A stretch of DNA of 64,000 nucleotides from Lachnospiraceae bacterium MD308 (lineage in GTDB: Bacteria > Bacillota > Clostridia > Lachnospirales > Lachnospiraceae): positions 2,124,417 through 2,188,416 of the forward strand of contig KE159795.1 of the NCBI GenBank assembly GCA_000403475.2, read 5' to 3'. Positions 32,196-36,059 of this stretch are shown one piece after another. The number at the start of each line of letters is the position of its first letter. The stretch's first letter is position 1. A program made the translations under genes and the position numbers. The notes below the pieces were generated by a model, which was not told the origin of the DNA, did no database searches, and saw nothing but the letters and a program-made list of their open reading frames with translations.

Positions 32196-32224
32196 TTGAC
32201 AAATAAATGCGATGGTGGTATCAT
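32196..32224 (+). promoter_or_regulatory. Strong sigma-A type promoter of an orphan unit
   Basis: Perfect -35 TTGACA (32196-32201), 17-base spacer, TATCAT (32219-32224). The start would be near 32231. No conventional gene follows before a terminator at 32566-32596. Confidence 0.8.
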
Positions 32225-32281
32225 AAGAACATCAAAAAAGAAGTTAATCTTTTAAATATAAAAGGAAGGAGGCTCACTCCA

Positions 32282-32371
32282 GTGGACACAGTAAAAGAAA
32301 CAACAATTCAATATGTTAGTGGTATGGCAGACGGAAGTTCCCGGAGAGAAGCCTTAACCTCTAGTATTTAA
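32282..32371 (+). CDS. Putative 29-residue small protein or leader peptide
   Basis: GTG at 32282 opens a 29-codon frame beginning MDTVKETTIQYVSG and ending TSSI-stop. AAGGAAGGAGG lies 9-10 bases upstream, one of the best ribosome sites in the window, and the strong promoter at 32196 drives it. GGAG of that site can pair with CTCC right before the start (GGAG-GCTCA-CTCC), which might hide it. No membrane helix; the peptide is polar. The remaining 200 bases of the transcript look structured and non-coding. It could be a real small protein, a regulatory leader, or chance inside an ncRNA. Confidence 0.4.
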   Translation: MDTVKETTIQYVSGMADGSSRREALTSSI

Positions 32372-32565
32372 AGATAAGCCGGAAAAATAGAATGAAAAAT
32401 GAGAGTTCGGAGAAGAGAGAACCGGTGAAAAGTAAGGATTTGTAATCTGCAGACATATTGAAGTAATGTACCACATAGATTTAAAAAAGGCTTGGGAACG
32501 GTTAATCCAGTGAATTCCTCCGAATTATAAAATAGAAGCAAATTAAACTGAATATAAAAATATAG

Positions 32566-32600
32566 CAGCCATTGGAGTAGAAAATTCCGGTGGCTGTTTC
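32566..32600 (+). terminator. Intrinsic terminator of the orphan unit
   Basis: CAGCCATTGGA pairs with TCCGGTGGCTG (two G-T pairs) around a 9-base loop, followed by TTTC. The T run is short. Confidence 0.65.
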
Positions 32601-32637
32601 GTGGTTATAGGAATTTTGTAATTATTAAGTGTATATT

Positions 32638-32666
32638 TTGACATTGAGAGAGCCATATGCTACACT
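32638..32666 (+). promoter_or_regulatory. Sigma-A type promoter of the hyperacidic P-loop gene
   Basis: TTGACA (32638-32643), 17-base spacer, TACACT (32661-32666), 58 bp before the start codon. Confidence 0.75.
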
Positions 32667-32723: not shown

Positions 32724-35700
32724 TTGGATAAATATGAATATCGGGTAAAAACAGAGCAACTGCTTGAATATACGGAGAAGAAGCAGTATCGGAAAGCAAT
32801 GGAAATTGCAGATACAATCGATTGGCGCAGGGTGAAGAGTGCGTCTATGTTGAATACGGTCAGTGAAGTTTATGAATACTGTGGAGAATTCCAGAAGAGC
32901 CGTGATATATTATTCATGGCGTTTGATCGTTCGCCGGGAAGCCGAAAGATTGTTTACAGGCTTGCGACTTTGGCGCTTAAGGTTAATGATCCGGATGAAG
33001 CTTCGGATTGTTATGAAGAGTTCGTGAAGCTGGCGCCAAAAGATCCGAACCAGTATATTTTGAAATACAGGATTCTTAAGGTGCAAAGGGCGCCGGTTGA
33101 GGAGCAGATTGCGGCGCTTGAGGAGTTTAAGAAGGCAGAGTATATTGAAAAATGGGCATATGAGCTGGCGAAGCTATATCATGATGCAGGCATGGTGCGG
33201 GAGTGCTTAGAGGAATGTGATGATCTGATTTTGTGGTTTAGCGAGGGCAAGTATGTCTATCTTGCGATGGAACTTAAGATGAAGTATAAGCCGCTTACTC
33301 CGCTTCAGCAGGAAAAGTATGATAAGCATACTGGTAAAAAGACAAAGGACATCGTAATTCCGGGGCAAGAGGAAGAAGATGAAGAAGAGGATAAGACGGA
33401 GACTGCAAATGGGAACACGCAAGAGATTCCTCCGCTGAAAGAGGAGGCTGCGACTGAAAAAGAAGAAGTGGAAGAGAAGAGTGTACCTAAGCAAACTCCT
33501 ACGGAAGAGAAAGACGATGTAAAAGAAGCGGAGGAAGAAAAAAGCAAACCTCGTGCTCCGATTACCAGGATTGTGACGGGCGCAACTCTTGAGGAGGCGC
33601 TTGCAAGCGGGGTTGCGATGGCAGCAGGCTTGAATCAGGAAGAGAAGGCTATGGCTGAAAGAGATGAGGAATTGAAAGTCAGCGGCCAGATGAAGATAGA
33701 GGATATTCTTCAGGAGTGGGAAGAAAAGCAGAAAGTGAATGCGGATGCTATTGAAAAGCAGAAGGCGGAGGATAAGGAAAGACTGCGGATTGAGCGTCAG
33801 GAAGCCGAAAAGCGAAAAGAAGCATCGCGCAAAGCTGCGGAAGAGGCAGCGAGAAAAGCAGAAGAGGAAGCCAGGAAGAAAGCTGCGGAAGAAGCGGCGA
33901 GAAAAGCAGAAGAGGAAGCGAAGAAGAAAGCGGAAGAAGCGGCGGCTAGAAAAGAAGCAGAGGAAACTGCAAGAAAGGCAGAAGAAGCGGCGAAAAAGGC
34001 AGAAGAAGCTAGAAGGAAAGCTGCAGAGGAAGCGGAGAAGTTAGCGGCCAGTCAAACTGCGGCAAAGAAAAAAGCAAAAGGGGCAGCGACAAGTGCGCCT
34101 AAGTCCAAAAAAACTAAGAAAAATATACTGGAGGAGAAGACCCAAAAACTCCCGGATGATATTATGGAGCTTGTGGAGCAGCTTGAAAGCAGAGTGTCCG
34201 GCACAGCGTCACCTCAAAAAGAGGAAGAGGAGGAGTTTGAACAGGAGGATCTATTAGAAGCTCTTGCAGAAGATTTTGGAGAGGGAGAACCGGCGGTTCT
34301 TTTAGAAGCTGAATTGCAAGTCGATGAATCGGAAGAAGAGTACGATTTTAAAGAAGAGGAACCGGAAGAAGATTTACTTGAGGAAGAGGAATCGGAAGGT
34401 GACTTCGAGGAAGACGATTTCGAAGAGGAGGAACCGGAAGGGGAAGACGTTGGAGAAGAAGAGCCCGAGAACGATGAATCCGAGGATGATTTTGAAGAAG
34501 AAGAGTCGGAAGATGATTTTGGGGATGACGAATCTGAGGAAGGTTTTGAGGAAGACGACTTCGAGGACGATGAATCGGAAGACTTTGAGAAAGACGATTT
34601 CGAGGACGAATCTGAGGAGGAAGATTTCGAGGATGACGAATCTGAGGAGGACTTTGAGGAAGACAATTTTGATGATGAATCCGAGGAGGACTTTGAGGAA
34701 GATGATTTTGATGATGATGAATCCGAGGAAGACTTCGAGGAAGATGATTTTGACGATGATGAATCCGAGGAAGACTTCGAGGAAGATGATTTTGACGATG
34801 AATCTGAGGAAGATTTTGAAGAAGACTTTGAGGAAGACGATTTCGATGACGAATCTGAGGAGGACTTTGAGGAAGACGATTTCGATGACGAATCCGATGA
34901 AGATTTTGAAGAAGATGAATTTGGAGAAGAAGGCGACTTTGACGAGGATGAGTTCGATGAAGATGAGTTTATAGAATCGGAAGATGACTTCGACGAAGAA
35001 GATTTTGACGAAGACGACTTTGAAGAGGAAGACTTTGAGGACGGAGAATCGGAAGACGAGGACGATTTTGACGAAGATGAACTCGATGAAGATGAACTTG
35101 ACGAAGATGAGCTTGATGAGGAAGATTTTGAGGAGGAAGAGGAAGAAGAAATCTCCCTTGAAATTGAGGAGCCTTCTGAGGAGGAGATACAGAAACGGTT
35201 TAAAAAGGCAAAAGGCGGAGGAGGTGTTCCGTTTGATACAGGTTTTGTGGTTACAGGGCGTTATGATTTGAGTGCCACTAGCGAAATCGGTTTGAAAGCG
35301 GGACTGACTGAGGAACAGAAAAAGTTGTTCTCTTACTTTGTGCCGGTTCGCGGTATGAGTGAGCAGATTGTAGAAGCTCTTGATAATGACCGCAGAGCTC
35401 AGAGAGAAGGGACATCTAAGACAGGAAACCTCTTGGTAATCGGCAGAAAGGGCTCTGGTAAGACTGTTCTTGCTGTAGATATTGTAAAAGCAATTCAGAA
35501 GCAGAGGAACTTAAAGCAGGGCAAGGTTGCAATTGTCACTGGCGAATCTTTAAATAAGAAGGAACTGCCGAACATCATCCAGAAGCTTAAGGGCGGAGCC
35601 ATCATTGTAGAGAAAGCAGGAAAGCTTAATTCGAGAACAGTGAAGGAACTGAATCATCTGATGGAGAGAAAAACCGGAGAGATGTTATTTGTCTTAGAAG

Positions 35701-36059
35701 ATCAGAGAAAGCCGCTTGAGAAGGTGCTGACGGCAAATCCGGAATTTAAGAAGAAGTTTACTTCTAAGCTTGAGCTTCCGATTTTTATCAATGATGAGCT
35801 GGTAACCTTTGGTCAGACTTATGCGAAGGAGAATGGATATAAGCTGGATGAGATGGGTATCCTGGCGCTTTATAGCCGTATTGATGTGATGCAGAGAGAG
35901 GATCATGCGGTATCCGTCGCAGAAGTGAAGGAGATTATGGACGAAGCGATTTCTCATTCCCAGAGAGTAAATGTGAAGCATCTGGCGCGGAGAGTATTCG
36001 GAAAAGGTACGGATGATTCAGACAGGATTATCCTGAAAGAAGAAGATTTTAAAATATAG
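32724..36059 (+). CDS. Giant hyperacidic protein with TPR-like N-terminus and P-loop C-terminus
   Basis: About 1111 residues, no signal or membrane segment. Residues 1-180 are helical repeats like TPRs (KQYRKAMEIADTIDW, LGRSPGSRKIV-type units). About 345-435 is an Ala/Lys/Glu coiled coil (KAAEEAARKAEEEARKKA type). About 500-810 is extremely Asp/Glu-rich with repeats such as EEDFEEDDFDDES. The C-terminal 280 residues contain a Walker A GRKGSGKT near 907 and an AAA-like tail (ILALYSRIDVMQRED, VKHLARRVFG); GEMLFVLEDQ may be Walker B. TTG 32724 is chosen since GAGGTGAG precedes it. Not a family I can name. Possibly a scaffold-type ATPase; the acidic tract could bind cations or basic partners. Confidence 0.8.
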   Translation: MDKYEYRVKTEQLLEYTEKKQYRKAMEIADTIDWRRVKSASMLNTVSEVYEYCGEFQKSRDILFMAFDRSPGSRKIVYRLATLALKVNDPDEASDCYEEFVKLAPKDPNQYILKYRILKVQRAPVEEQIAALEEFKKAEYIEKWAYELAKLYHDAGMVRECLEECDDLILWFSEGKYVYLAMELKMKYKPLTPLQQEKYDKHTGKKTKDIVIPGQEEEDEEEDKTETANGNTQEIPPLKEEAATEKEEVEEKSVPKQTPTEEKDDVKEAEEEKSKPRAPITRIVTGATLEEALASGVAMAAGLNQEEKAMAERDEELKVSGQMKIEDILQEWEEKQKVNADAIEKQKAEDKERLRIERQEAEKRKEASRKAAEEAARKAEEEARKKAAEEAARKAEEEAKKKAEEAAARKEAEETARKAEEAAKKAEEARRKAAEEAEKLAASQTAAKKKAKGAATSAPKSKKTKKNILEEKTQKLPDDIMELVEQLESRVSGTASPQKEEEEEFEQEDLLEALAEDFGEGEPAVLLEAELQVDESEEEYDFKEEEPEEDLLEEEESEGDFEEDDFEEEEPEGEDVGEEEPENDESEDDFEEEESEDDFGDDESEEGFEEDDFEDDESEDFEKDDFEDESEEEDFEDDESEEDFEEDNFDDESEEDFEEDDFDDDESEEDFEEDDFDDDESEEDFEEDDFDDESEEDFEEDFEEDDFDDESEEDFEEDDFDDESDEDFEEDEFGEEGDFDEDEFDEDEFIESEDDFDEEDFDEDDFEEEDFEDGESEDEDDFDEDELDEDELDEDELDEEDFEEEEEEEISLEIEEPSEEEIQKRFKKAKGGGGVPFDTGFVVTGRYDLSATSEIGLKAGLTEEQKKLFSYFVPVRGMSEQIVEALDNDRRAQREGTSKTGNLLVIGRKGSGKTVLAVDIVKAIQKQRNLKQGKVAIVTGESLNKKELPNIIQKLKGGAIIVEKAGKLNSRTVKELNHLMERKTGEMLFVLEDQRKPLEKVLTANPEFKKKFTSKLELPIFINDELVTFGQTYAKENGYKLDEMGILALYSRIDVMQREDHAVSVAEVKEIMDEAISHSQRVNVKHLARRVFGKGTDDSDRIILKEEDFKI
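34480..35140 (+). repeat. Acidic-tract DNA repeats
   Basis: Imperfect 30-39 base units of the GAGGAAGACTTCGAGGAAGA kind encode E/D-F-E/D blocks; the segment near 34680-34900 has units that are almost identical. GAA/GAG/GAC/GAT codons make up most of the stretch, so the tract length is likely to vary between strains. Confidence 0.85.

Follow-up and report, generated by a model that had tools for sequence, protein, structure and literature searches.

In leader-peptide attenuators of the erm and trp type, translation of a short open reading frame (ORF) competes with pairing within its own RNA, ahead of a terminator. In the large RNAs GOLLD, ROOL, and OLE, we know of no Shine-Dalgarno (SD) sequence and ORF built into a knot. 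The passages of Kretsch et al. 2025 (PMC12286853) on which we draw present these ornate bacterial RNAs as long and conserved, with elaborate structures and poorly understood functions; the RNA reported here resembles them in these respects but differs in matching no Rfam family. The raiA motif RNA, or ModT (RF03072), is a structured RNA of Bacillota, and ModT acts in trans (PMC11706538, in the passages cited), as is proposed for the present RNA. SR1/SR1P of Bacillus subtilis and VcdRP of Vibrio cholerae are dual-function sRNAs, that is, small RNAs that also carry a short ORF (PMC8501984 and PMC8672173, again in the passages cited). As judged by comparison only, the present RNA likewise has its own promoter and an ORF with a conserved start and frame; it differs from them in that the coding strand itself forms the predicted knot and the peptide is unconserved outside the paired codons. 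Finally, the main-text passages of Fremin and Bhatt 2021 (PMC8040213) report 3161 candidate structured RNAs of human microbiomes, 27 to 219 bp in size, 99 of which may overlap small genes. Those passages, supplement aside, do not describe the present RNA; fragments of it could appear in that catalogue, which is the likeliest place for an earlier fragment. No description of the RNA or its peptide was found in the literature searched by titles and the starts of abstracts, and the string QYVSG occurred in four papers that, by title, are unrelated.

The locus lies in a 64,000-nucleotide stretch of DNA from Lachnospiraceae bacterium MD308, hereafter called the window. A promoter (P1), an SD, a small ORF, a knotted RNA, a terminator, a second promoter (P2), and a TPR-ATPase gene follow one another along the DNA (Table 1), with about 194 nt from the ORF stop to the hairpin and ~370 nt from P1 to the hairpin. 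An earlier sequence-only reading had described a complete promoter-SD-ORF-terminator unit here, and every element that it named is present. The hairpin of the proposed terminator is there, but the T-tract after it is weak (TTT CG) and the hairpin is missing from the list made by a mechanical terminator scan; in aligned relatives, hairpins occur at the equivalent site, many with longer T-tracts (by eye). Pairing of the ribosome site with CTCC beside the start exists in the window as a GGAG/CTCC option, but relatives keep only a GG(A)/(T)CC core (by eye). The start codon of the window and its relatives sits inside a near-palindrome (TCCATTGGA, GTCCCATGGAC; 32278 to 32287 in the window) that could fold into a tiny hairpin or mediate contact between molecules. 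We rejected a pairing between the start region and a terminator arm (ACTCCAGTGG / CCATTGGAGT), which is good in part of the genus only and absent in other terminators (by eye).

Table 1. Features of the unit and its surroundings in the window
Feature	Position	Strand	Basis and remarks
Promoter P1, TTGACA-17-TATCAT	32196..32224	+	Scan, 11/12 consensus; TG ahead of -10; kept in genus alignment A3
SD, AAGGAGG	32266..32272	+	Sequence; purine-rich SD at equivalent place in aligned relatives
Small ORF, GTG start at 32282, 29 codons, VDTVKETTIQYVSGMADGSSRREALTSSI	32282..32371 (including stop)	+	Sequence; start and frame conservation
Strand a, TTCAATATGT, pseudoknot stem 1, in ORF	32307..32316	+	Compensatory changes with a'
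Strand b, GTGGTAT, pseudoknot stem 2, in ORF	32319..32325	+	Compensatory changes with b'
Strands c and d, GTTCCC ... AAGCCTT, in ORF	32337..32355	+	Own-versus-swapped partner duplex test, 0/2000 permutations
Hairpin e/e', CCGG (32379-32382) with CCGG (32422-32425)	32379..32425	+	Both-side changes, 5/6 pairs
Strand f, TTCGGAG, loop of hairpin e	32406..32412	+	Complementary to f'; changed partners in relatives by eye; 3/2000 permutations
Strand a', ACATATTGAA	32453..32462	+	Compensatory changes with a; RNAalifold
Strand b', GTACCAC	32468..32474	+	Compensatory changes with b
Strands d' and c', AAGGCTT GGGAAC (AAGGCTTGGGAAC)	32487..32499	+	Complementarity; duplex permutation test
Strand f', CTCCGAA	32518..32524	+	Complementary to f; by-eye partner changes; permutation test
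Terminator-like hairpin, arms CAGCCATTGGA / TTCCGGTGGCTG at about 32565-32598	about 32565..32602	+	Sequence; minimum-energy fold; relatives by eye
Promoter P2 of the next gene, TTGACA-17-TACACT	32638..32666	+	Promoter scan; conserved in relatives
Neighbor gene: TPR-like N-terminal part, acidic linker, AAA-type ATPase	32724..36059	+	TPR label by eye; not shown to belong to the unit

The unit was kept in all five of the same-genus genomes searched, at 81 to 84% identity, and 100 of 108 loci, counting the window, had a P1-like site matching at least 10 of 12 positions ahead of the start, compared with 14.8 expected from shuffles (4 of 112 loci had too little upstream DNA and are omitted); the unit is therefore more than a chance arrangement. 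Promoter, ORF, and pairing, on whose conservation in close relatives the idea of a unit had been staked, are all conserved. The RNA is longer in other lineages than in the window: its middle, between b' and d', is nearly absent in the genus of the window and elsewhere holds conserved blocks such as GTGTAAAGAAACAT, and the distance from the start codon to the first codons of the neighbor gene is 443 nt in the window, with a median of 730 and a range of 425 to 1685 nt over 86 loci. Upstream of the SD, the divergent leaders of two loci (L191 and L193) have a block in common, GAGACGAGAAATCTTAATA, so the 5' leader may hold a further conserved element.

By this comparison, the unit belongs to a family of putative structured RNAs that apparently has not been described before. 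We searched a collection holding one genome per species for an exact pattern (GGAC, 12 to 40 bases, CAATATGTYRGTGGTAYGG) and obtained 109 stretches. Among the 80 of them that were listed, one was foreign, from Aquimarina (L101), and out of frame, and was left out throughout; the other listed matches were named as Lachnospiraceae or as other clostridia (Mediterraneibacter, Dorea, Faecalicatena, Schaedlerella, and others), among them records of Mediterraneibacter glycyrrhizinilyticus, Extibacter muris, and Schaedlerella arabinosiphila. Built from 70 loci, a first sequence-only model (R1) matched 75 of 397 Lachnospiraceae genomes at E values up to 0.01, and a broader sequence-only model (R2) matched 67 of 324 sampled Lachnospiraceae genomes, a count that includes genomes that fed the models, at E values up to 0.001, spanning 66 of the 323 genera sampled. 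Samples at the level of the order and the class yielded matches in 9 of 295 and 3 of 291 genomes, of which two and one, respectively, lay outside Lachnospiraceae. These three (G549, G601, and G817) look like chance, having neither the SD-start block nor a/a' (by eye), and neither sample contained a convincing match outside the family.

The sequence-only reading had left room for an unnamed RNA, and searches with Rfam 15 bear this out, with no matches in the window and, in eight relatives, only rRNA elsewhere in L102. Permissive Rfam scans of the window region, L135, and L188 gave nothing or matches far below the cut-offs. Several known RNAs were set aside individually. RF03072 (raiA/ModT) was unmatched in the window region at a permissive threshold and in all of 40 Lachnospiraceae genomes, though the control genomes were likewise unmatched; tmRNA (RF00023) has its own copy in the genome of the window (G000:C3:8199-8551) and one over the cut-off elsewhere in 8 of 8 genomes; and 6S RNA (RF00013) also has its own copy (G000:C1:769054-769235), with one present in 8 of 8 genomes. 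A phage or plasmid origin was set aside too, with no match among phage or plasmid records; one IMG/VR contig (L157) matches at the start of its stretch, which is probably host flank. The genome of the window contains a second, weak match to the RNA model (G000:C4:242078-242226; E 0.009), probably by chance. Another genome, G086, holds two diverged copies of the RNA on contigs C7 and C12 (L202 and L295); the ORF of one has 30 codons and is out of frame with strand a, and that of the other reads MG and then stops.

Comparison of the relatives shows a predicted core made up of an H-type pseudoknot (a/a' and b/b'), a long-range closing helix (c,d/c',d'), and a hairpin (e/e'); the putative f/f' pairing has weaker support. 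The assignment to the H type follows from the strand order, a<b<a'<b'. Strands a and b are carried by the QYVSG codons of the ORF and both pair downstream, while the ORF segment c,d pairs near the 3' end of the RNA. Covarying pairs, for which the sequence-only reading had proposed a test in related Lachnospiraceae, were found as compensatory changes in a/a', b/b', and e/e'. Alignment A6 comprised 86 sequences, placed with a sequence-only model; in it, 94.5% of cells were paired, compared with 27 to 47% in slid controls, and 12 of 23 pairs had changes on both sides, compared with 5.8 in shuffles (0 of 500, relatedness uncorrected). By helix, pairing was 97.9% in a, 94.2% in b, and 88.9% in e, and both-side changes occurred at 5 of 10, 2 of 7, and 5 of 6 pairs, respectively; as the search pattern fixes most of a and b, their invariance is partly a matter of ascertainment. 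Alignment A7 comprised 26 sequences outside the alignment used to build R2, of which 13 had shaped the hypothesis and the other 13 were fetched later and read by eye before the count. Here 93.4% of cells were paired and 8 of 17 pairs had both-side changes, compared with 2.8 in shuffles (0 of 500, relatedness uncorrected); on further pair types, one of five measures, 51 of 500 shuffles scored at least as high. Compensated versions of a/a' include CAATATGG/CCATATTG (L188) and CAGTATAT/ATATACTG (L223); L204 combines CAATGTGT/ACACATTG with GTAGTAG/CTACTAC, and L192 has GTGATAC/GTATCAC for b/b'.

For the c,d/c',d' duplex, own partners gave -18.3 kcal/mol and permuted partners -14.0 kcal/mol (0 of 2000 permutations; 49 nonredundant sequences), compared with 253 of 2000 when the 3' segment was reversed as a control; in 12 of the 49 sequences, the own partner ranked among the top 5% of swapped ones. 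The same kind of test gave 3 of 2000 for f/f'. These duplex tests dropped 28 of 152 loci, in which the pattern did not locate a, f, or f', and used 49, nonredundant, of the remaining 124. Thermodynamic folding agreed in part. RNAalifold recovered a/a' and e/e' unprompted, yet it paired three bases of b with the d region, and the single-sequence minimum-energy fold of the window RNA, in which no pseudoknot is possible, has no a/a' helix and instead joins the SD to the d region within the ORF; the fold is more stable than those of shuffled sequences (z = -2.1).

The small ORF is conserved in its start and frame. Among 148 parsed loci, the start codon is ATG in 88, TTG in 48, GTG in 11, and CTG in 1; the start is ATG in the five same-genus genomes, making the GTG of the window a variant. 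The start is in frame with the QY codons in 146 of the 148, at a distance of 21, 24, 27, 30, 33, or 36 nt, and the frame is open up to strand a in 147. Two loci (L202 and L211) are out of frame, and L210, scored as in frame, stops before strand a; three of 151 loci could not be parsed (L199, L209, and L225), and L227, which looks like coding DNA, was left out. The other two frames also end soon, at medians of 13 and 7 codons from strand a (97 loci), so the frame is not kept merely against long read-through. The ORF spans 19 to 40 codons in 139 of 164 loci, 14 to 18 in 16, and 2 to 4 in 8, with none at 5 to 13 and one locus (L209) without a start (L227 and L304 were left out of this count). Most ORFs of 14 to 18 codons end right after strand b (L137 is cut by the end of its locus), and those of 2 to 4 codons (e.g., MG, MGT, and MRTT) end before strand a. 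Because of these eight shortest ORFs and L209, reading through the knot is evidently not required everywhere.

A synonymous bias in the codons, on which the sequence-only reading had also proposed to judge the ORF, holds over QYVSGMA, where pN/pS is 0.28 but where pairing and the search pattern constrain the codons anyway, and fails on either side, where it is 1.19 before and 1.28 after (95 of 112 loci, 1894 pairs). In the N-terminal part, the two control frames scored 0.68 and 0.62, below the real frame, so the test there lends no support to selection on the peptide. Taken with the length classes, the conserved start and frame and the pN/pS of about 1.2 in the flanks indicate that start and frame are conserved more than the peptide, which outside QYxSG is probably a by-product. 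An ordinary small-protein gene was set aside accordingly, since pN/pS is near 1.2 to either side of QYVSGMA despite the maintained frame.

The neighbor gene begins, by conservation, at TTG 32724, behind GAGGTGAG, and not at GTG 32715; its protein has a long acidic repeat and a C-terminal AAA-type ATPase that is distantly similar to SpoVK/CbbX. Of 39 Lachnospiraceae genomes tested, 37 contain this gene, whether or not the RNA was detected in them. A search for hidden copies of the RNA at the ATPase loci of 10 genomes apparently without it and 11 with it elsewhere found none that was credible (best E 0.0095, L267). Among the 144 loci that could be assessed, 106 have the gene downstream of the unit (88 of 94 from the main set found by pattern and 18 of 50 from the divergent and later sets), and in the remaining 38 it was not within the 1.8 to 6.9 kb examined (21 loci were too short to assess; L304 was kept and L227 left out). 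In four genomes (G219, G037, G032, and G452), RNA and gene are about 3.6 to 5.0 kb apart on the same strand, in G425 they are about 12 kb apart, and in G337 about 71 kb; in further, draft genomes, they are on different contigs. The unit of L193 has a promoter and a strong terminator, and the gene after it, lon, lies on the opposite strand in tail-to-tail orientation. A frame resembling an RluD-type pseudouridine synthase recurs downstream in six divergent loci (L196, L201, L205, L208, L209, and L215; by eye). The promoter that the sequence-only reading had assigned to the following gene, P2, is well conserved: a P2-like site matching at least 10 of 12 positions was present in 84 of 86 loci, compared with 10.0 expected (26 loci, in which the gene start was not recognized, are omitted). 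In 61 of the 86, a T-tract between the unit and the ATPase gene runs into the -35 box of P2 (TTTTTTGACA).

With about even confidence, we favor the reading that the unit is a gene in its own right, whose product, a structured RNA from a new family in Lachnospiraceae, would carry a ribosome-loading site at its 5' end, act in trans, and have its folding gated by ribosomes. At its base is what the comparison of loci shows: a conserved unit with its own promoter, in which the 5' strands of the predicted pseudoknot are codons of an ORF conserved in start and frame. Ribosomes would load at the strong SD at the 5' end of the RNA; in some lineages, they would stop after 2 to 4 codons, just ahead of the knot, and in others they would cross it in one fixed frame, briefly peeling a, b, c, and d off their partners. 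Since elongating ribosomes would displace these strands, translation and folding would compete, and ribosome loading may thus gate or protect the fold. The folded RNA may then act in trans, as suggested by the difference in neighbors between lineages. It is a tentative possibility that the overlap goes further, with coding sequence and pseudoknot core made of the same nucleotides and an independent RNA that would be switched as ribosomes move along its built-in ORF and would report the state of translation in trans, while the peptide hardly matters. The minimum-energy fold of the window, which lacks a/a', and the partial b-d pairing of RNAalifold both speak against a ribosome-gated RNA, as do the loci whose ORFs end ahead of the knot or lack a start.

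Of the three outcomes that the sequence-only reading had entertained, a small protein, a dual-function RNA, or an unnamed noncoding RNA, the comparison supports a structured RNA, as yet unnamed, in which an ORF of conserved start and frame is embedded, and the rival explanations differ mainly in what that ORF is for. It may be incidental to a trans-acting structured noncoding RNA, with the SD and start serving merely to shield the 5' end or to keep the RNA on ribosomes. A parked ribosome can block a 5' exonuclease in Bacillus, the SD and start persist in the 8 of 164 loci where the ORF has only 2 to 4 codons, and the peptide has no sign of purifying selection outside QYVSGMA; however, an incidental ORF would not hold its frame, which is kept in 146 of 148 loci though the other frames also stop soon, and we find this explanation somewhat unlikely. 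The opposite view, that a QYxSG peptide is the product and the RNA structure only controls its synthesis, would draw on the same conserved start and frame, on the recurrence of QY in most of the divergent members, and on the low pN/pS over QYVSGMA, and the tight frame in the class of long ORFs would also fit a functional QYxSG peptide. That stretch is held by base pairing, though, and its letters largely by the search pattern, while the flanks, the eight loci that encode only 2 to 4 residues, and the lack of an NCBIfam match for any of the three peptides tried all count against it, so that a small-protein gene is decidedly unlikely.

A role in cis, in which translation of the small ORF sets the fold and the fold sets read-through of the terminator into the TPR-ATPase gene, has the anatomy of a leader-peptide attenuator, as a strand of the ORF and a downstream strand form a conserved helix, and the ATPase gene following in 106 of 144 loci would fit it. 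A simple leader of this gene was indeed favored after the neighbor survey; it lost ground once P2 proved to be conserved and the unlinked divergent loci and the lon case came to light. In contrast to an attenuator, the unit has no constant downstream gene: the ATPase gene has its own promoter and does not follow in 38 of 144 loci, and RNA and gene are kilobases apart or on different draft contigs in several cases. Given the conserved P2, the loci where the ATPase gene does not follow, and the tail-to-tail arrangement with lon, the unit is mostly not a leader, as the sequence-only reading had also maintained, and a cis leader or attenuator is unlikely. Because the gene follows in 88 of 94 main-set loci, a link to it does exist, and in the main branch the unit may also affect the ATPase gene in cis, as a secondary role. 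Promoters, ORFs, and terminators are individually common, but conservation and compensatory change across the family (A6 and A7) contradict a degenerate or coincidental arrangement of them without function, which is extremely improbable.

Among the unsolved problems of bacterial RNA biology are large structured RNAs whose function is unknown, the best known of which have been described as noncoding; the RNA reported here, with codons of a conserved frame as strands of its predicted knot, comes from Lachnospiraceae, a major gut family. Since the knot and the reading frame can be mutated separately, whether translation switches a trans-acting RNA becomes a testable question. Pipelines that discard RNA candidates overlapping ORFs, or ORFs overlapping RNAs, could miss such genes.
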